6,058 bases of DNA from Sedimentisphaerales bacterium. Lineage in GTDB: Bacteria; Planctomycetota; Phycisphaerae; Sedimentisphaerales; SG8-4. The stretch covers positions 1-6,058 of the forward strand of contig JAFGCA010000691.1 in assembly GCA_016932895.1 (NCBI GenBank), written 5' to 3'. Below, one piece after another: positions 1 through 6,058 of the stretch. Positions within the stretch are counted from its first letter, which is position 1. Each line of letters opens with the position of its first letter. The notes below the pieces were generated by a model. The model worked only from the letters and a program-made list of their open reading frames with translations, had not been told where the DNA came from and made no database searches. The position numbers were made by a program, and so were the translations under genes.

Positions 1-11
1 AGAATACGCCC

Positions 12-1019
12 ATGCGTGAGCTTAAGAATCAGATTCTGTGCGGGGACTGCGTCGAGATCCTGCGGTCGGCGACCGAGCCGTTTGCGGATCTGGTCTTCGC
101 GGACCCGCCGTTCAATATCGGATACAAGTACGACAAGTATCACGACAGCAAGGCGAGCGGCAAGTATCTCGCCTGGACCCGCGACTGGATCGGCGAATGC
201 ATCCGCGTGCTCAAGCCGCAGGGGTCCATCTTCATCGCCATCGGCGACGAGTACGCCGCCCACATCAAGCTGATTCTCGAGGATGAACTCGGTCTGACCC
301 TGCGCAATTGGATCATCTGGCATTACACCTTCGGCCAGCAGACGAAAAGCAAGTTCGCCCGCGCGCACACGCACATCCTCTATTTCGTAAAGGATGCGAA
401 GAGTTTCGTATTCAATGACGATCTGGTGCGTGTGATTTCTGACCGGCAGAAGAAATACAGCGACAGGCGAGCCAACCCGGCAGGCAAGATGCCCGACGAC
501 GTGTGGAACGAATACCCGCGGATCTGCGGGACGTTCTCCGAGCGCACGGGGCATCCCTGCCAGATGCCCGAGAGCCTGCTGGCGAGGATCATCCGCGTCA
601 GTTCCCACGAGGGCGACTGGGTGCTCGACCCGTTCTGCGGCTCGGCCACCACCGCTACCGTCGCCCACAAACTCAAGCGCCACTACACGACCATCGACAT
701 TTCCGAGACCTACGTGGAGGCAGCCAAGCAGCGGATCAAGGAATCCGCCGGCCTGCCCGTCGAGGGCGAGGGCCTGCCCGATTGGCCCGAGCATGCGGAC
801 AATGAGCTGAAATGGCTTTTCGGCGAGAACAAGATCCCGTTGCGATACCTATGTGCGAACCACATGCTCCTGGCCCTGTTCACGGACAAACTAAACGGCC
901 GGCTCCAGAAGGCGACCCCCTACACCACCCGGCAGGTCCACGACCGGCTGTACGCTCTGGGCAGCGTGCTCAGTCCCATCGATAAGCTCAGTGCGGTGTC
1001 AACGGAGGAGGCTGTTTGA
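12..1019 (+). CDS. Beta-class site-specific DNA methyltransferase (N4-cytosine/N6-adenine type), solitary
   Basis: S-adenosylmethionine-dependent methylation of an exocyclic amino group in DNA. Seen: the catalytic motif IV DPPF at residues 31-34 precedes the cofactor motif I DPFCGSATT at residues 206-214, the order of the beta class; the segment between them would hold the target-recognition region. Motif I has Ala where the family's FxGxG usually has the second Gly. IDISETY follows, as in the family's post-motif-I strand. After about residue 250 there is a roughly 85-residue, probably helical C-terminal extension (ELKWLFGEN..., TTRQVHDRLYALG) that I cannot name. ATG 12 is chosen because the opening KNQILCGDCVEIL matches the family N-terminus, but only 11 upstream bases are visible and none is a clear ribosome-binding site, so an upstream start is not excluded. 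No restriction endonuclease is next to it on the right. The stop overlaps the lnt start by 4 bases. The target sequence cannot be read from the protein. Confidence 0.93.
   Translation: MRELKNQILCGDCVEILRSATEPFADLVFADPPFNIGYKYDKYHDSKASGKYLAWTRDWIGECIRVLKPQGSIFIAIGDEYAAHIKLILEDELGLTLRNWIIWHYTFGQQTKSKFARAHTHILYFVKDAKSFVFNDDLVRVISDRQKKYSDRRANPAGKMPDDVWNEYPRICGTFSERTGHPCQMPESLLARIIRVSSHEGDWVLDPFCGSATTATVAHKLKRHYTTIDISETYVEAAKQRIKESAGLPVEGEGLPDWPEHADNELKWLFGENKIPLRYLCANHMLLALFTDKLNGRLQKATPYTTRQVHDRLYALGSVLSPIDKLSAVSTEEAV
25..37. repeat. 13-bp perfect palindrome with two GANTC sites
   Basis: AGAATC-A-GATTCT is a perfect dyad over codons 5-9 of the methyltransferase gene and contains GAATC and GATTC. 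It may be chance. It is noted because GANTC is the target of CcrM-type beta-class methyltransferases, though this enzyme's specificity is unknown. Confidence 0.35.
1004..1010 (+). promoter_or_regulatory. Shine-Dalgarno of lnt (GGAGGAG)
   Basis: GGAGGAG lies 5 bases before TTG 1016, inside the last codons of the methyltransferase gene. It decides for the TTG start and for translational coupling through the TTGA overlap. Confidence 0.85.
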
Positions 1020-2830
1020 AGGATAGAACGCCTTTACTTCGTGCGGGATTCCTCTTCATCCTCAGCGCCCTGCTGCTGACGGTCATCCAGCCGCCCATCG
1101 ATTGGTCCTTTCTTGCGTGGATGGCTTTTGTCCCCTTTGCTCTCGCTTGCTCGCCTCAGGTGAAGGCCCGCACCCTGGTCCTCGCAGCCTTCATCGTCGG
1201 GTACGTCTACTGGCTGGTCAACCTGTACTGGATTCAGCCGATCACGACCCTCGGCTGGCTGGGCATGGGTCTGTACCTGTCGCTGTTCTGGCTGCTGCCG
1301 GCGATGACTGTGCGGTTTGCCCGGTCGAAGGGGATTCCGCTGTTCATCGCGCTGCCGATCCTGGTGGCCGGCTTTGAGCGGATGCAGGGGCGTCCGATGG
1401 GCGGCTTTTTCTGGCGGTTCCTGGGGCACAGCCAGTATGAGAATCTCGCATTGATCCAGGTGGCCGACCTGGTCGGCGTCGCGGGCATCTCCTTCGTGGT
1501 CGCCCTGGTCAACGGTCTGCTGGCGGATTTGATCGTGAAACGTGAAGCGTACCTCGTGAAGCGTACAACAGAATCCTCCGCTTCACGCTTGACGCTTGAC
1601 GCTTCACGGCCCCTCATCGGTGGCGTCGTGGTGACGCTGGCGGTCGTCACGGGCACGCTGCTCTACGGCCAGTGGCGGCTCGGGCAGACGCCGGCATACG
1701 TGACCGACGGCCCGCTGGTGGGCTCGCTGCAATCCAATGTGCCGCAGTCGGTCAAGCAGAGCTACAGCGCCGGCGCGGAGCTTTTTGACGGCTTGATGGT
1801 CCACAGCAAGGCCGCCGCGGCGGCCGGGGCCGAGTTGATCGTCTGGCCGGAGACGATGGTTCAAGGCATTCTCGACCCGGCGCTATGGCCCTACCTCAAG
1901 AACATCGACGAGGACAAGGCCTTTCACAAGGCGCTCGCCGAACATGCCAAGGACACCGCCTGGCTCCTCGTTGGGGCGCATGGGGCCGAGATTAAATGGG
2001 ATGACTCCGACGAAGCCTACCTGGAAACCTATAACTCCGCCTATTTCTACCGGCCGGACGGGACCCGCGACCCCGGCCGATACGACAAGATCCACCTCGT
2101 GCTCTTCGGGGAGTACATCCCGTTCAAGAAGTGGTTCCCCTGGCTGTTCAAGTGGTTCATGCCCGAAGGTTATCACCCCAGTCTCACGCTCGAAAAGGGC
2201 AAGAACTACACGCTCTTCGCGATGGACCCAGAACAAACGTCAAGTTCGAAGTCTCAAGTTTCAAGCGGCGAGTCCTCACTTGAAACTTCAAACTTCAAAC
2301 TTCAAACTGGCCACCGCTTCGCGGTCATCATCTGCTACGAGGATACGATCCCGTACGTGGCCCGGAACTTCACCCTCGACGAGCAGGGCCGCAAGCAGAT
2401 CGACTGGCTGGTCAATATCAGCAACGACGGGTGGTTCGTGCAGTTCCCCGAGGACGAGGGGCGTGTGGTCCCGAGCAGCGAGCTGCCCCAGCACGCCGCG
2501 ATCTGCGCGTTTCGGGCGGTCGAGAACCGCCTGGCCGTCATTCGCAGCGTCAATACGGGCATCAGTTGCCTGATCGAGTCCACCGGCCGGATTCGGGACG
2601 GGTACCTGGCCGCCAGCGAAGGTTTTCCCCGGGAAGCGATGGCTCGAACGGCTATGACTGGATGGTTCCTCGACCGATTGCCGATAGATAGCAGGGTGAC
2701 CTTCTACAGCCGGCACGGCGAGTGGTTCGCCAACGGCTGTGCGGCGGTCTTCGTCGGGATGGTCCTGTGGCCGCTCGCTGCCGGTTGGCGCGTGCGCCGA
2801 CGGACACGAAGGACGACGAAAGCAGCGTAG
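1016..2830 (+). CDS. lnt: Apolipoprotein N-acyltransferase (Lnt), with two in-frame repeat insertions
   Basis: Inner-membrane enzyme for the last step of lipoprotein maturation: it moves an acyl chain from phospholipid to the alpha-amino group of the diacylglyceryl-cysteine. Seen: about six hydrophobic segments in residues 5-170, another near 200-216, a periplasmic nitrilase-type domain at about 225-540, and a C-terminal segment near 570-592 followed by a basic tail. The catalytic triad is complete: Glu279 (VWPET), Lys358 (YDKIHLV) and Cys440 (IICYED). FGEYIP (Glu366), NISNDGWF (467-474) and FRAVENR are also present. TTG 1016 is chosen for the GGAGGAG 5 bases upstream and the 4-base overlap with the preceding gene. 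At 604 residues it is longer than the usual roughly 500-540. Residues about 173-198 and 407-432 are encoded by palindromic heptamer repeats and look like insertions. The frame stays open and all catalytic residues survive, so the enzyme is probably active. A lipoprotein gene lies downstream. Confidence 0.95.
   Translation: MKDRTPLLRAGFLFILSALLLTVIQPPIDWSFLAWMAFVPFALACSPQVKARTLVLAAFIVGYVYWLVNLYWIQPITTLGWLGMGLYLSLFWLLPAMTVRFARSKGIPLFIALPILVAGFERMQGRPMGGFFWRFLGHSQYENLALIQVADLVGVAGISFVVALVNGLLADLIVKREAYLVKRTTESSASRLTLDASRPLIGGVVVTLAVVTGTLLYGQWRLGQTPAYVTDGPLVGSLQSNVPQSVKQSYSAGAELFDGLMVHSKAAAAAGAELIVWPETMVQGILDPALWPYLKNIDEDKAFHKALAEHAKDTAWLLVGAHGAEIKWDDSDEAYLETYNSAYFYRPDGTRDPGRYDKIHLVLFGEYIPFKKWFPWLFKWFMPEGYHPSLTLEKGKNYTLFAMDPEQTSSSKSQVSSGESSLETSNFKLQTGHRFAVIICYEDTIPYVARNFTLDEQGRKQIDWLVNISNDGWFVQFPEDEGRVVPSSELPQHAAICAFRAVENRLAVIRSVNTGISCLIESTGRIRDGYLAASEGFPREAMARTAMTGWFLDRLPIDSRVTFYSRHGEWFANGCAAVFVGMVLWPLAAGWRVRRRTRRTTKAA
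1534..1608. repeat. Palindromic heptamer-repeat element 1, in frame inside lnt
   Basis: Left arm 1534-1563 and right arm 1579-1608 pair at 24 of 30 positions around a 15-base loop. Both arms are built from 7-base units: CGTGAAA, CGTGAAG, CGTACCT, CGTGAAG on the left, and GCTTCAC, GCTTGAC, GCTTGAC, GCTTCAC on the right. The span is 75 bases (25 codons) and keeps the frame. It encodes a Lys/Arg/Ser/Thr-rich stretch (about residues 173-198) between two predicted membrane spans, in what should be a cytoplasmic loop. Confidence 0.85.
2236..2308. repeat. Palindromic heptamer-repeat element 2, in frame inside lnt
   Basis: Left arm 2236-2265 and right arm 2279-2308 pair at 23 of 30 positions (22 of 26 for the inner part from 2240) around a 13-base loop. 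The right arm repeats ACTTCAA three times and the left arm has CAAGTTC, GAAGTCT, CAAGTTT. It is translated as about residues 407-432 of Lnt (SSSKSQVSSGESS, then LETSNFKLQT), just before the strand carrying catalytic Cys440. Its loop contains GAGTCCTC, close to GAATCCTC in the loop of element 1. Confidence 0.85.
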
Positions 2831-2844
2831 GTACTTCAAGCAAG

Positions 2845-2978
2845 AAATCCGAACCAGACTCAAAGGACAAGACCCAAGTGACCGAAACGCTGTCGCCATC
2901 CCGGCGGGAGCCGTTTTGGATTTGTAGTCTTCGGTCATTCGTGCTTGTTTCGGAATTCGAGCTTCGAGTCTTGGATTT
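2845..2978. repeat. Decayed palindromic heptamer-repeat element 3, intergenic
   Basis: This fills most of the spacer between lnt and the lipoprotein gene. The left arm 2845-2886 (starting AAATCCG, ending TGACCGAA) matches, with gaps, the reverse complement of 2930-2978 (AAATCC..., ACAAG..., TGACCGAA); the centre is about 43 bases and includes CCCGGCGGG. The right arm reads in 7-base steps: ATTCGTG, CTTGTTT, CGGAATT, CGAGCTT, CGAGTCT, TGGATTT. It is less perfect than elements 1 and 2 and was aligned by eye. No promoter or T-run terminator was seen in the spacer. Confidence 0.65.
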
Positions 2979-2989
2979 TACGTTCACGT

Positions 2990-2993
2990 GAGG
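2990..2993 (+). promoter_or_regulatory. Shine-Dalgarno of the HEAT lipoprotein (GAGG)
   Basis: GAGG lies 6 bases before ATG 3000. The alternative in-frame GTG at 2988 overlaps this site and has no purine-rich site of its own upstream, so ATG 3000 is preferred. Confidence 0.65.
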
Positions 2994-2999
2994 TATTCG

Positions 3000-4040
3000 A
3001 TGGATCGGATCGGTCGGCTTTCTGAGACTGCGGCGTTCGGCTTCACGCTGCTGTTGCTGTTGGGCTGCGAGCCGGCGGCGCAGTCGCGTTCGGCTCCCCT
3101 GCTGTCCACTCCGACGACGCCGCCGAAATTGGCCGCTGGCGGAGACCTGCCGGCCCAGGCCCGCCAGATCGTAATCGACGGCCTGGGAGATCCCAGCCCT
3201 CAGATCCGCGCCAACGCCGTCGAGGTGGTGGCTACGACGCGCGACATCCGCCTGATGCCGAGGGTGCAGAAGCTGCTCGCGGACGAGGTGGTGCCCGTCC
3301 GGTTCGCCGCCGCGGTCGCGGTGGGCGATATGGAGTATGCCCTGGCCAAGAAGGACATCGCCGGCCTGCTGAGCGACCCGAATCCGAATATGAAGATCGC
3401 GGCTGCGTACGCCTTCTCCCGCCTGGGCGAGCCGGAATACTATAAGGTGCTGAGCAGTTCCCTGGCCAGCAACGACCAGACGGTCCGCGCCAACGCCGCC
3501 CTGCTACTGGGCAAGAGCGGCAGACAGGAGGGAGTCGGCTATCTTTATTGGACCCTGCAGCGAGCCGACTCGGCCGACAAGGTCGTCCTGCAGGCGGCCG
3601 AGTCCATCGCGATGCTCAAGGACCCGCGGATCTATCCCAAGCTCTGGACTCGCCTGATCAGCGCGTACGCGGACGATCGCGTGATCGGAATCCAGGCCAT
3701 GGGCGCCCTGGGCACCGAAGAGGCCCGCAACGCCCTCGTCACGATGCTGGACGACGCGGTCCCCGAGGTTCGCCTGGCGGCCGCCGGGCAGCTCGGCAGG
3801 CTGGGCGACGCCATTGGGGAACCGGAAGTGCTGGCCGTCATCGAGAAGAACCTCTCGGCCGCGATGGACCCCCAGGGCCAGGAGCGGATCAGGACGCTGA
3901 CCGCCTTGGCCATCGGGGAGATCGGCACCCCCTCGCTCACCAGGCACCTGCCCTCCCTGCTGCGCGACCCTTCCAAGGTCGTCCGTCTGGCGGCTGCCAA
4001 GGCCGTTTTGCGGTCCGCCGCCCGGGGGATCGGCTCCTGA
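3000..4040 (+). CDS. HEAT-repeat lipoprotein
   Basis: Predicted membrane-anchored lipoprotein whose body is an alpha-solenoid, a fold normally used for protein-protein contact; the partner is unknown. Seen, numbering from ATG 3000: a signal peptide with Arg3 and Arg6, a hydrophobic core at 11-21, and the lipobox LLGC with Cys23 as the lipidated residue; a Pro/Ser/Thr-rich linker at about 25-48; then about nine HEAT-like repeats to the end, recognisable by their second helices (IRANAVEVV, VRFAAAVAVG, VRANAALLLGK, VRLAAAGQLGRLG, VRLAAAKAVLR). The mature protein is about 324 residues. GTG 2988 would add four residues but lacks a ribosome-binding site. It follows lnt with a 169-base gap filled by a repeat element, so co-transcription with lnt is possible but not shown. 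Lnt would be expected to acylate this cysteine. HEAT repeats resemble PBS-lyase/phycocyanobilin-lyase-type repeats, so database names may vary; nothing suggests lyase activity. Confidence 0.88.
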   Translation: MDRIGRLSETAAFGFTLLLLLGCEPAAQSRSAPLLSTPTTPPKLAAGGDLPAQARQIVIDGLGDPSPQIRANAVEVVATTRDIRLMPRVQKLLADEVVPVRFAAAVAVGDMEYALAKKDIAGLLSDPNPNMKIAAAYAFSRLGEPEYYKVLSSSLASNDQTVRANAALLLGKSGRQEGVGYLYWTLQRADSADKVVLQAAESIAMLKDPRIYPKLWTRLISAYADDRVIGIQAMGALGTEEARNALVTMLDDAVPEVRLAAAGQLGRLGDAIGEPEVLAVIEKNLSAAMDPQGQERIRTLTALAIGEIGTPSLTRHLPSLLRDPSKVVRLAAAKAVLRSAARGIGS

Positions 4041-4093
4041 AGTCCCCGTAGACCACTCACGGGCCATCCGCCACGCGGCGCGAAAACCACCTC

Positions 4094-4114
4094 GGCCCGC
4101 CCGCAGGCGGGGCC
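4094..4114. repeat. GC-rich hairpin in the intergenic region
   Basis: GGCCCGCC (4094-4101) and GGCGGGGCC (4106-4114) pair over 8 bp with one bulged base around a CGCA tetraloop, 54 bases after the lipoprotein stop. No T-run follows, so it is not a standard intrinsic terminator. It could help stop or stabilise the upstream transcript, or be a dispersed palindrome. Confidence 0.55.
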
Positions 4115-4159
4115 CGACCCACCGATACCCTGCCCTGTGTCCCCTGCATACAACACCTT

Positions 4160-4177
4160 CTATTTAGGCTATTTAGG
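4160..4177. repeat. Tandem 9-mer CTATTTAGG x2 upstream of the promoter
   Basis: CTATTTAGG occurs twice in direct tandem (4160-4168, 4169-4177), ending 9 bases before the -35 hexamer. It is AT-rich in GC-rich surroundings. The position fits an activator site or an UP-like element; both are inference. Confidence 0.6.
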
Positions 4178-4186
4178 AAAAATGAC

Positions 4187-4215
4187 TTGACCTTTTCCTG
4201 GTGGAAGCGTAAAAT
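4187..4215 (+). promoter_or_regulatory. Sigma70-type promoter for the coiled-coil gene
   Basis: The -35 TTGACC (4187-4192) and -10 TAAAAT (4210-4215) are separated by 17 bases, and each matches the consensus at 5 of 6 positions. Transcription would start near 4222, giving a leader of about 40 bases to TTG 4262. It lies in the only AT-rich patch of the 221-base intergenic region 4041-4261. It is a sequence match only, but a strong one for GC-rich DNA. Confidence 0.75.
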
Positions 4216-4247
4216 TGTGGCATGCAGAAGTAGAAATGCCGATTCGT

Positions 4248-4255
4248 GAAAGGAG
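4248..4255 (+). promoter_or_regulatory. Shine-Dalgarno of the coiled-coil gene (GAAAGGAG)
   Basis: GAAAGGAG ends 6 bases before TTG 4262 and decides for this start. No ATG or GTG is placed as well in this frame. Confidence 0.85.
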
Positions 4256-4261
4256 CCTGTC

Positions 4262-5164
4262 TTGAGTACGCTTACCAAGGTTCTGATCGTTTTGCTGACC
4301 GTCTTCTCGATTTTCCTGTGCGGCATCGTCGTCACGTACGTGGCCAATGCCGAGAATCAAAAGGAACGCGCGGACGGGCTGCAGCGCACTATTCAGGCCG
4401 CCAAGAGCCGGGAAGCGCAGGCCCAGCAGGATCTCGAGACCGAGAAGCAGAGGGCCCAGAACGAGAAGGCCCAGCTCGACGCGGACTTGAACAAGCTGGC
4501 CATGCAGATCAAGAGTCTCCAGGGCGAGCTGGACTCGGCCAATCGCGAGCGGAACCAATTGGTGCAGAAAGTCACCAGCATGGCGTCGACGGTCGAGACC
4601 GCCAACGCGGCGTCCAAGCAGCAGACCACGCTGTTCGAGACCGCCCAGCAGGAAGTCCAGAGCCTGCGGGCCGAGCAGACGAACAGCCGCAAGGATCTCG
4701 ACGAGACCAACCAAGTGCTTTTGGAGAAGATGACCGTGATCGCCCAGCTTGAGGAGCAGGTTCGGCGGCTCGCGGAGGAGAATCAGCAGATCGAGACCCA
4801 ACTGAACCAGTACTTGCAGCAGTATGGTCGAATCGCGGCCAAACCGCCCACGACCGTAGCCACCCGCAGCACGACCGTCCAGCCGGCGCAGGCGGGCACG
4901 ATGGCCCCCACGACGCCGACCCGGACGATCGCTCTGAACGGCACCGTCACGGCGGTGGATGTGAAGAACAAGCTGGCGGAAATCTCCATCGGGGCGGTCG
5001 CCGGCGTCAAGCAGGACATGACGTTCCACGTCATTCGCGGAGATCGCTGGGTGGCCAACGTGCAGATTCTGGACGTCTGGCCGGACCGTGCCGTCGGGGT
5101 CATCGATCGCAGCGAGCCGGGCGTGGAGCCCAGGGCCGGTGACGTAGTCGCAACGAACCTGTAA
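4262..5164 (+). CDS. Membrane-anchored coiled-coil protein with C-terminal SH3-like beta domain, upstream of mreB
   Basis: No named family recognised. Seen: a short N-terminus with Lys6, then one membrane span at about 7-28 (VLIVLLTVFSIFLCGIVVTYV); a long Gln/Glu/Lys/Ala-rich coiled coil at about 30-188; a Pro/Thr/Ala-rich linker at about 190-221; and a beta-rich domain at about 222-300 (LNGTVTAVD, GVKQDMTFHVIRGD, VANVQILDV, AVGVID, AGDVVATNL) that recalls SH3-like or FlgT C-terminal-type folds. The topology predicts an extracytoplasmic coiled coil and beta domain anchored in the inner membrane. TTG 4262 is set by GAAAGGAG 6 bases upstream. A strong promoter and a tandem 9-mer precede it. A 52-codon gene and mreB follow on the same strand. 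The plan of span, coiled coil and beta domain resembles MreC, but the coiled coil is much longer and only one small beta domain is present, so it is not called MreC. A role with MreB is inferred from position only. Confidence 0.85.
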   Translation: MSTLTKVLIVLLTVFSIFLCGIVVTYVANAENQKERADGLQRTIQAAKSREAQAQQDLETEKQRAQNEKAQLDADLNKLAMQIKSLQGELDSANRERNQLVQKVTSMASTVETANAASKQQTTLFETAQQEVQSLRAEQTNSRKDLDETNQVLLEKMTVIAQLEEQVRRLAEENQQIETQLNQYLQQYGRIAAKPPTTVATRSTTVQPAQAGTMAPTTPTRTIALNGTVTAVDVKNKLAEISIGAVAGVKQDMTFHVIRGDRWVANVQILDVWPDRAVGVIDRSEPGVEPRAGDVVATNL

Positions 5165-5202
5165 GCCGAGAGCGGCCAGGGGCCCAGCGCGGTCTCGCCG
5201 CC

Positions 5203-5208
5203 AGGAGG
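5203..5208 (+). promoter_or_regulatory. Shine-Dalgarno of the 52-codon gene (AGGAGG)
   Basis: AGGAGG is a full consensus match, 10 bases before ATG 5219, slightly longer than usual spacing. It touches the alternative TTG 5209 with no spacing, which argues against that other frame. Confidence 0.75.
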
Positions 5209-5218
5209 TTGTCTGTTC

Positions 5219-5377
5219 ATGAGTCCAATGCCTCAAGCACGCGGGGGCAAGGTGTCCCCTCCCAGCAATCTGTACACGGCTATTCTGGCCGTAGCGGTCG
5301 GGGTCGTTCTGGCGACGGCGGCCTATGTGACGTTTGCCTGCTACACCTGCTACGGCACGATTTTTACCCTGCCGTAG
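5219..5377 (+). CDS. Small single-span membrane protein (52 aa) with CxxC
   Basis: No family recognised. Translation from ATG 5219 gives 52 residues ending in TAG 5375-5377. Seen: a polar, basic N-terminus (Arg8, Lys11, three prolines), then a hydrophobic span at about 18-40 (LYTAILAVAVGVVLATAAYV), then a short tail with Cys41-Tyr-Thr-Cys44 and YGTIFTLP. The positive charges predict N-in, C-out topology, putting the CxxC at the outer edge of the membrane. AGGAGG lies 10 bases upstream. The gene starts 54 bases after the coiled-coil gene, probably on the same transcript, and ends 70 bases before mreB. A clean hydrophobic span plus a full ribosome-binding site argue for a real gene; with only 52 codons chance is not excluded. 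It could be a small partner of the coiled-coil protein or of the MreB machinery. Confidence 0.72.
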   Translation: MSPMPQARGGKVSPPSNLYTAILAVAVGVVLATAAYVTFACYTCYGTIFTLP

Positions 5378-5386
5378 CGAATTCCC

Positions 5387-6058
<672 letters not shown>

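Follow-up and report, generated by a model that had tools for sequence, protein, structure and literature searches.

An apparently overlooked class of genomic repeats: palindromes built of seven-base units, nearly uniform in the orientation of their two halves in the commonest types

The DNA analysed here, the window, is a stretch of 6,058 nucleotides from a Sedimentisphaerales bacterium (GenBank assembly GCA_016932895.1, contig JAFGCA010000691.1, positions 1 to 6,058 of the forward strand), for which Pfam matches and open reading frames give the gene order DNA methylase, lnt, HEAT-repeat protein, coiled-coil-like protein (the coiled coil being judged from the sequence) and MreB. The gene lnt (1016..2830, + strand) encodes apolipoprotein N-acyltransferase, with LNT_N and CN_hydrolase matches in Pfam and an open frame of 604 amino acids. 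It looks intact, though it hosts in frame two palindromic elements made of 7-base units, elements 1 and 2, and a third, element 3, occupies the whole spacer from its stop codon to the HEAT gene. These elements, and dyads of the same design in related genomes, look like members of an overlooked class of genomic repeats. The relatives of lnt that carry a name are mostly metagenome-assembled genomes of Sedimentisphaerales, Phycisphaerae or Planctomycetes, and counts at the scale of genomes were taken from these relatives, not from the window's own genome.

Elements 1 and 2 occupy two variable loops of lnt (1534-1608 and 2242-2311, + strand). The left arm of element 1 (1534..1563, inverted repeat I1) consists of the units GTGAAAC, GTGAAGC, GTACCTC and GTGAAGC and the right arm (1579..1608) of the units CGCTTCA/CGCTTGA, with a period-7 array at 1577-1610; the arms are 30 nt long and 80% complementary, and the 15-nt loop between them (1564..1578) is not kept in the orthologous locus L002. 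In element 2, the left arm (2242..2265, inverted repeat I3, AAGTTCGAAGTCTCAAGTTTCAAG) and the right arm (2279..2311, units CTTGAAA, CTTCAAA, CTTCAAA and CTTCAAA, period-7 array 2276-2311) enclose a 13-nt loop (2266..2278); the pairing ends at 2302, and the paired 24-nt arms (2242-2265/2279-2302) are 88% complementary. The window's two arrays compare with none in 300 dinucleotide-preserving shuffles, and both dyads stand as the first-pass annotation, made from the letters alone, had described them; by inspection, their right-arm units also match its consensus CTTSAMR. Its argument for a common origin, the GARTCCTC shared by the two loops, fails: the orthologous element 1 in L002 has the loop agggccgggttccga, the loop of element 2 varies among orthologues, and the shared letters are probably a coincidence.

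The left arm of element 1 recurs elsewhere: a 20-mer that includes its odd third unit has 31 matches with at most two mismatches in 7 of 15 relatives (control 0), one of them being the lnt orthologue in G002. The codon conservation of element 1 is ordinary (0.70 vs 0.64, window against L002 only). In five species, identical codons reach 0.756 in element 2 against 0.600 in the rest of lnt, where the highest of 546 other windows has 0.772; constraint, homogenisation or youth may account for the higher identity in element 2. It had also been suggested that the reading frame is kept only by total length. Total length does decide the downstream frame, but a stop-free heptamer array is itself open in all three frames of its strand because 7 and 3 are coprime, which suggests how such DNA survives within genes.

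Element 3 (approximately 2831..2985, + strand) is a diverged copy of a dispersed long-hairpin family. Taken alone, its description as a heptamer dyad is weak, with a lag-7 signal in the right arm only (p 0.0025; left arm p 0.45) and a best inverted repeat equalled by 9 of 300 shuffles. It is nonetheless real, as one copy of a dispersed repeat: the repeat's 18-mer, ATTCGTGCTTGTTTCGGA (2937..2954, + strand), occurs in 9 of 15 relatives, with 114 matches at no more than one mismatch, 39 of them in G007, and none in the reversed control. A long hairpin with both halves was present in 11 of the 12 loci listed for this 18-mer. We fetched 40 exact copies, namely 20 of 24 in G007 and 20 of 31 in G001, G002, G003, G004, G008 and G082 (none of the 2 of G005 and G006), and by eye both halves are present in 36 of them. 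The alignment joins the window to these 36, leaving out the four without all or part of the left half (L424, L441, L443, L454); the copies align with few gaps over about 168 columns, conservation stops sharply on both sides, and the ends read AAA..TTT. By eye, among 12 sequences downstream of lnt, the full element 3 is found in the window and at the same place in L002, it is interrupted by another element in L003, a few outer heptamers only are found in L001, L004 and L008, and nothing of it in six. The interrupting element in L003 is a variant of a second dispersed palindrome (TGTCATCCTGAGCGAAGCGAAGGATC...CAGAATGACA), variants of which lie in or beside lnt and elsewhere (L015, L024, L041, L003, L059, L084).

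The outer units of this family are drawn whole from a small palette. Around the core, the heptamers AAATCCG, AAGCACG, AAATTCG, AAACTCG and AATATCG make up 133 of 216 units, a count that skips the window's copy and includes two near-identical orthologues (L451, L456). At five of six outer positions the entropy of units is lower than in all 500 column shuffles (units without an AA..CG-like frame dropped, 30-35 of 36 kept per position), and these units are therefore swapped whole, not changed by point mutation. The left and right arms of one copy are no more alike than different copies, with identical units at a frequency of 0.103 in register, 0.052 off register and 0.130 between copies. The two arms of one copy share an outer heptamer in 18 of 260 cases, more rarely than the same position across copies (0.13), as if identical units were avoided.

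The preference for period 7 extends far beyond the window. In 52 sequences (842 kb, the window and 51 lnt loci), strict arrays number 18 at lag 7 and 8 at its multiple 14, while no other lag between 4 and 24 exceeds 3 (0-2 for periods 4-13 other than 7); relaxing the cut-off raises the counts to 62 at lag 7 and 44 at lag 14, with none of the remaining lags from 4 to 19 above 12. First samples of two genomes, drawn at even contig numbers, held 15 arrays in 209 kb (G012) and 16 in 233 kb (G006), with 9 and 11 at lag 14 and 0-6 at other lags, and a third genome, G010, had 3 lag-7 arrays in 400 kb, no more than at lag 15. A second sample of G006 comprised long contigs, and the array densities of this genome are biased upward because six of them (C3, C32, C210, C223, C228, C267) were already known from pattern matches; the reversed-pattern control of that search is uninformative, since the pattern is nearly the same read backwards. 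Arms of period 7 are found in 66 of 464 inverted repeats, and arms of any other period between 4 and 13 in 0-11; a few of these 66 are palindromes of another kind that passed by chance, and part of the G006 DNA is a biased sample. An excess of 7-base-period dyads, one of the two tests that the first-pass annotation had set for its proposal, is thus present, and period 7 stands out strongly.

Dyads of the GATT and GAAG vocabularies have a near-fixed polarity: the 5' arm carries GATT or GAAG, the 3' arm AATC or CTTC. Of the 66 7-periodic dyads, 60 have more G in the left arm, 5 in the right, and 1 is neutral; strand bias cannot cause this, because a dyad is its own reverse complement. A pattern of three GATTNNN units, 4-34 nt and three AATC units is matched 180 times (a sum of forward matches with overlapping registers counted), in 44 of the class's 298 genomes, against 3 matches in 2 genomes for the reversed control, while the AATC-first pattern has 3 matches in 2 of the 298 and its reversed control 10 in 3. 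In stretches of the IMG/VR database, GATT-first dyads outnumber the opposite by 72 to 0 and GAAG-first dyads by 45 to 2, counts that are not all independent since some stretches share a contig or lie on orthologous contigs. When the spacing of the GATT-first pattern was changed, 1 IMG/VR stretch was found at period 6 and 12 at period 8. The period-8 dyads are the stretches L336-L347, and at 8 bp only the GATT-first polarity was searched. We read GATT, GAAG and CGAA as all purine-first, which is an after-the-fact reading. The exceptions are C-left dyads in L005, L023 and L037 and the element 3 family, which has AAATCCG-type (AATC-type) units in the left arm and a C-left member in L082 (3890-4033).

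The 111 distinct GATT dyads (38 from the class genomes and 73 from IMG/VR) comprise 649 units, 607 of which have G or T directly after GATT; the unit is therefore GATTKNN. One step outside the first full unit the 4-mer is HATT in 53, and outside the last it is AATD in 43, of the 110 dyads with both flanks available, so many GATT dyads begin at ATT and finish at AAT. The three variable bases pair at 0.636 in register, 0.604 off register in the same dyad and 0.326 between dyads, and the unit next to the loop alone pairs better (0.718). Exact mirror copying of one arm by the other is weak at most: 24 of 32 dyads lie above the permuted mean (sign p 0.007; combined p 0.26; after exclusion of four dyads considered non-heptameric and of every dyad whose arms have under 4 units), and among the 111 GATT dyads 36 are positive, 36 negative and 39 ties. 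Chimeric elements occur in loop 2 of lnt (L001 11192-11284; L004 11222-11317), with GGACAGA units on the left and ACTTCAA units on the right; their arms are not complementary, yet the polarity is kept. In L177 (G135:C1:134211) the dyad is made of GATTAGG units, which resemble a telomere repeat. A doubtful possibility is that a process as yet undescribed writes genome-specific 7-base units onto DNA or element ends, so that the core of each copy would receive freshly drawn heptamers; equally doubtful is its form, a telomere-repeat-like or template-read addition to bacterial chromosomes that would set GATT and GAAG units nearly always purine-first toward the centre. We rate such writing lower because the element 3 family breaks the polarity rule.

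The gene lnt offers a natural experiment, in that one conserved gene allows inserts of several kinds to be compared with one another and with empty loops. Its 60 distinct frames, counted from stop to stop and with the window's among them, contain 28 period-7 arrays, whereas each of the other periods between 4 and 13 yields 0-2; 18 of the 28 lie at the loops of elements 1 and 2, 6 before them and 4 are unplaced, and the loops of other relatives are empty or hold GTAG palindromes or other repeats. Palindromes of the type GTAGGGTGGGC...GCCCACCCTAC, which resemble the hairpins of repetitive extragenic palindromic sequences (REPs) called REPINs, fill in frame the loop of element 1 (S1) in L004, L005, L006, L007 and L008, and in L005 a GTAG palindrome and a heptamer dyad lie side by side in lnt. 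By simple frame calls on the genome samples, 21 of 60 arrays in G006 are inside reading frames, 11 partly and 28 outside, with 91% of the DNA coding, and the 15 arrays of G012 split into 5, 5 and 5. Some dyads lie directly 3' of stop codons.

Comparisons of close relatives reveal gain, loss and remodelling. Between L015 and L020 (94.7% identity of aligned DNA), a dyad is present at the 5' end of lnt in L015 only, and it is derived because the outgroup L019 agrees with L020; another palindromic repeat adjoins it. Compared with L014 and L027, L011 is longer by about 82 bp and bears a dyad, a difference that may be gain or loss. Empty orthologous sites, one of the checks proposed for these elements, can therefore be found (L015 vs L020/L019; L011 vs L014/L027), but their edges are not always clean, as L015 illustrates. 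Arms gain and lose whole 7-bp units: the lnt loops of L023 and L027 differ by 21 nt, i.e., three units, and orthologous dyads at one site in G231, G132 and G248 (flanks 92.5-95%) have left arms that differ by 14 bp and right arms that differ by 7 bp. In L218, L224 and L226, orthologous sites keep GATT and vary in the remaining three bases of the unit. The orthologous dyads L221 and L222 (G248, G132; flanks 90-92%) have their loop in opposite orientations within the same flanks, so arms probably recombine.

This turnover, with absence in relatives, speaks against a selected function, in which RNA or DNA structures (terminators, hairpins at mRNA ends, protein-binding arrays on GATT or GAAG) would be kept for regulation. 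The constancy of GATT, the codon identity of element 2, the depletion of arrays in the reading frames of G006 and the dyads directly after stop codons speak in its favour. The variable bases, though, pair hardly better in register than off, and the element 3 alignment has no compensatory change among 13 predicted pairs, a result on which we reject structure-guided selection on element 3. We regard regulation as a rather improbable explanation of the elements.

Copies of some families are dispersed. In G231, one 23-bp loop recurs in five dyads with 0-3 differences and in both orientations, and a second loop in two dyads; the flanks of the five, 35 to 450 bp away, are unalike except for one match between L213 and L215 (51-bp, 78%). 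Such a recurrence of the same loop or core in many different places is hard to reconcile with a purely local origin, in which 7-nt polymerase slippage would make an array and a fold-back (quasi-palindrome) template switch would copy the second arm, without mobility. Nor would local copying lead one to expect one arm sequence with dozens of matches in G231 and G132 (at least 80 each) or arms that are not copied in register (0.636 vs 0.604 off register). It does fit the whole-unit gains and losses, the near-fixed polarity, if synthesis of the nascent strand yields the GA-type arm before the other, and the abundance of heptanucleotides among long simple repeats, linked to the polymerase footprint in the sources cited (PMC4679880, PMC4692102). 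We deem it unlikely, if worth serious consideration.

We lean, on balance, towards the reading that the elements are small (~60-170 bp) non-autonomous dispersed palindromic repeats of modular heptamers, with arms remodelled by unit-sized slippage and recombination. Mobility is the best explanation, unproven. A new copy would arise by movement of the core or loop, perhaps via a single-strand hairpin or copy intermediate and with a genome-encoded enzyme; unit-sized slippage and recombination would later reshape the arms and could also invert the loop between them; within genes the element would persist because an array without stops leaves all frames of its strand open, with selection keeping the total length a multiple of three. 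A number of observations weigh against this reading. First, no target-site duplication was found in the 27 copies of element 3 examined, out of 40 fetched (2-9 bp, 1456 hypotheses; best excess 6 observed vs 2.0 shuffled, at 2 bp), and no compensatory changes accompany their hairpin. The invariance of their 18-mer follows from the choice of copies by the exact 18-mer. Second, most loops observed are unique, so copying of whole elements is established for some families only. Third, the likeness of the shared-loop dyads of L213 and L215 continues into some 50-75 bp of adjoining DNA, and 138 bp around the L215 dyad match G132:C61 at 88%; copying may thus take in more than the dyad. Fourth, the dyad in L015 replaces up to ~38 bp of host sequence. 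Fifth, the polarity rule is not general, being broken by the element 3 family and the C-left dyads, and the two arms of a GATT dyad have a common vocabulary and are not mirror copies. Finally, in 20 neighbourhoods of REP-associated tyrosine transposases (RAYTs), only 1 holds a 7-periodic palindrome, ~1.7 kb off, 10 hold other hairpins only and 9 none. These neighbourhoods are those of the strongest listed matches in dyad-bearing genomes, a minority of the RAYT genes there, and several are cut by contig ends.

The neighbourhoods count equally against an origin of the dyads as REPINs moved by RAYT (Y1) transposases, which we think highly improbable. Genuine GTAG palindromes do lie in the same lnt loop (L004-L008) and Y1_Tnp genes are found in 43 of the 44 dyad-bearing genomes, but they are also found in 222 of the 254 genomes without dyads (265 of 298 in all), and the dyads have no GTAG end. 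The one dyad-bearing genome without a Y1_Tnp match is that of the GATTAGG dyad in L177. No partner enzyme was found, Y1_Tnp being the only transposase family looked at. The proposal of a non-autonomous mobile class remains the favoured one but is unproven as to transposase and target-site duplication. The common class envisaged for the three elements survives in its design, as dyads of this build exist, but not as one lineage: they belong to three separate families, with CGTGAAG units (element 1), CTTCAAA units (element 2) and a fixed core with CGAANNN outer units (element 3).

The replacement of up to 38 bp in L015 would be natural if the dyads were scars of break repair, in which genome-specific heptamers are added to both 3' ends of a break that are then joined. 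The fusion of two extended ends head to head would give the polarity of GATT and GAAG dyads, arms common in vocabulary but not in order, and chimeric arms with the polarity kept, as in L001 and L004. Both G231 dyads tested mark the end of synteny with G132, one of them at a 7.9-kb difference. Indel junctions are, however, not clearly enriched: 11 of 43 have arrays where 6.9 are expected from density, and the pairs overlap and are not 43 independent cases, so that indel junctions as general sites of dyads are unconvincing. Shared loops and cores are not what such scars would predict either, and we consider this origin very unlikely. The 7.9-kb case is L215 (G231:C216) compared with G132:C5, with a dyad where 7.9 kb of G132 is missing or gained.

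Two further observations concern surroundings. Seven dyad loci adjoin tRNA genes (L180, L182, L183, L219, L220, L227, L228), and in four of them (L183, L220, L227, L228) the dyads lie between tRNA-Ala and tRNA-Ile, in the gene order usual within rRNA operons. In the window, an N6/N4 DNA methylase (12-1019) adjoins lnt, and a restriction-like gene is absent from the window's Pfam matches.

We found no account of genome-wide heptamer dyads in Planctomycetes in the open-access literature, outside which most subscription papers lie. Mazel reportedly defined the short tandemly repeated repetitive (STRR) sequences of cyanobacteria, and Elhai is said to have defined small dispersed repeats. The excess of heptanucleotides has so far been ascribed to slippage, and a related hairpin in Nostoc has been left of unknown origin; the polarity, the core-plus-palette build and the shared loops make both testable as one element class. 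Small dispersed palindromes with a polar tag, also in genes, are known as GTAG/CGTC REPs and REPINs (PMC3733652). The dyads share the size, dispersal and occurrence in genes, but differ from these, as described there, in lacking the GTAG or CGTC end tag, which is absent from the window elements while many GATT dyads end ATT..AAT, and in having no RAYT association in the 20 neighbourhoods. Set beside miniature inverted-repeat transposable elements, they have terminal inverted repeats, the dyads themselves, but no target-site duplication was found in the 27 element 3 copies examined. Rickettsia palindromic elements, of 105-146 bp and in frame in protein genes (PMC2229807), are alike as in-frame palindromic inserts, of which lnt supplies 28 arrays in 60 frames; going by their description, they differ in being defined by a sequence family, not by heptamers. 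Simple heptanucleotide repeats in Calothrix, Xanthomonas (GGGAATC), Nostoc (GGGGATT) and Beggiatoaceae (TAACTGA) are likewise dispersed and of a 7-bp unit, with inverted pairs in Xanthomonas; they are mostly of one fixed unit, and the passages cited describe no polarity rule, palette or conserved core (PMC4692102, PMC4679880). The same sources summarise Mrazek 2007, by which no class of long simple repeats is more abundant than heptanucleotides in most genomes; the cause given is polymerase footprint or slippage. A close likeness is with P6b of the trnL (UAA) intron in Nostoc and Calothrix, a degenerate heptanucleotide hairpin of class I (TDNGATT) or class II (NNTGAGT) whose origin is given as unknown (PMC4476775, PMC3488679). 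As reported for Nostoc, its heptamers with a GATT core fold as a dyad, change copy number by whole units and are replaced class by class; TDNGATT rotated is GATTTDN, which fits GATTKNN, and the dyads have the same degenerate 7-nt units. Dyads with a GATT-type core occur in 44 of 298 class genomes, but the window's own units are GAAG-type (elements 1 and 2) and CGAA-type (element 3) and sit in lnt and its spacer, not in a trnL intron. The Nostoc hairpin is known, in those accounts, from that one intron, whereas the dyads are genome-wide and have several cores; Phycisphaerae carry them in genes as well as spacers, and IMG/VR contigs contain them too.

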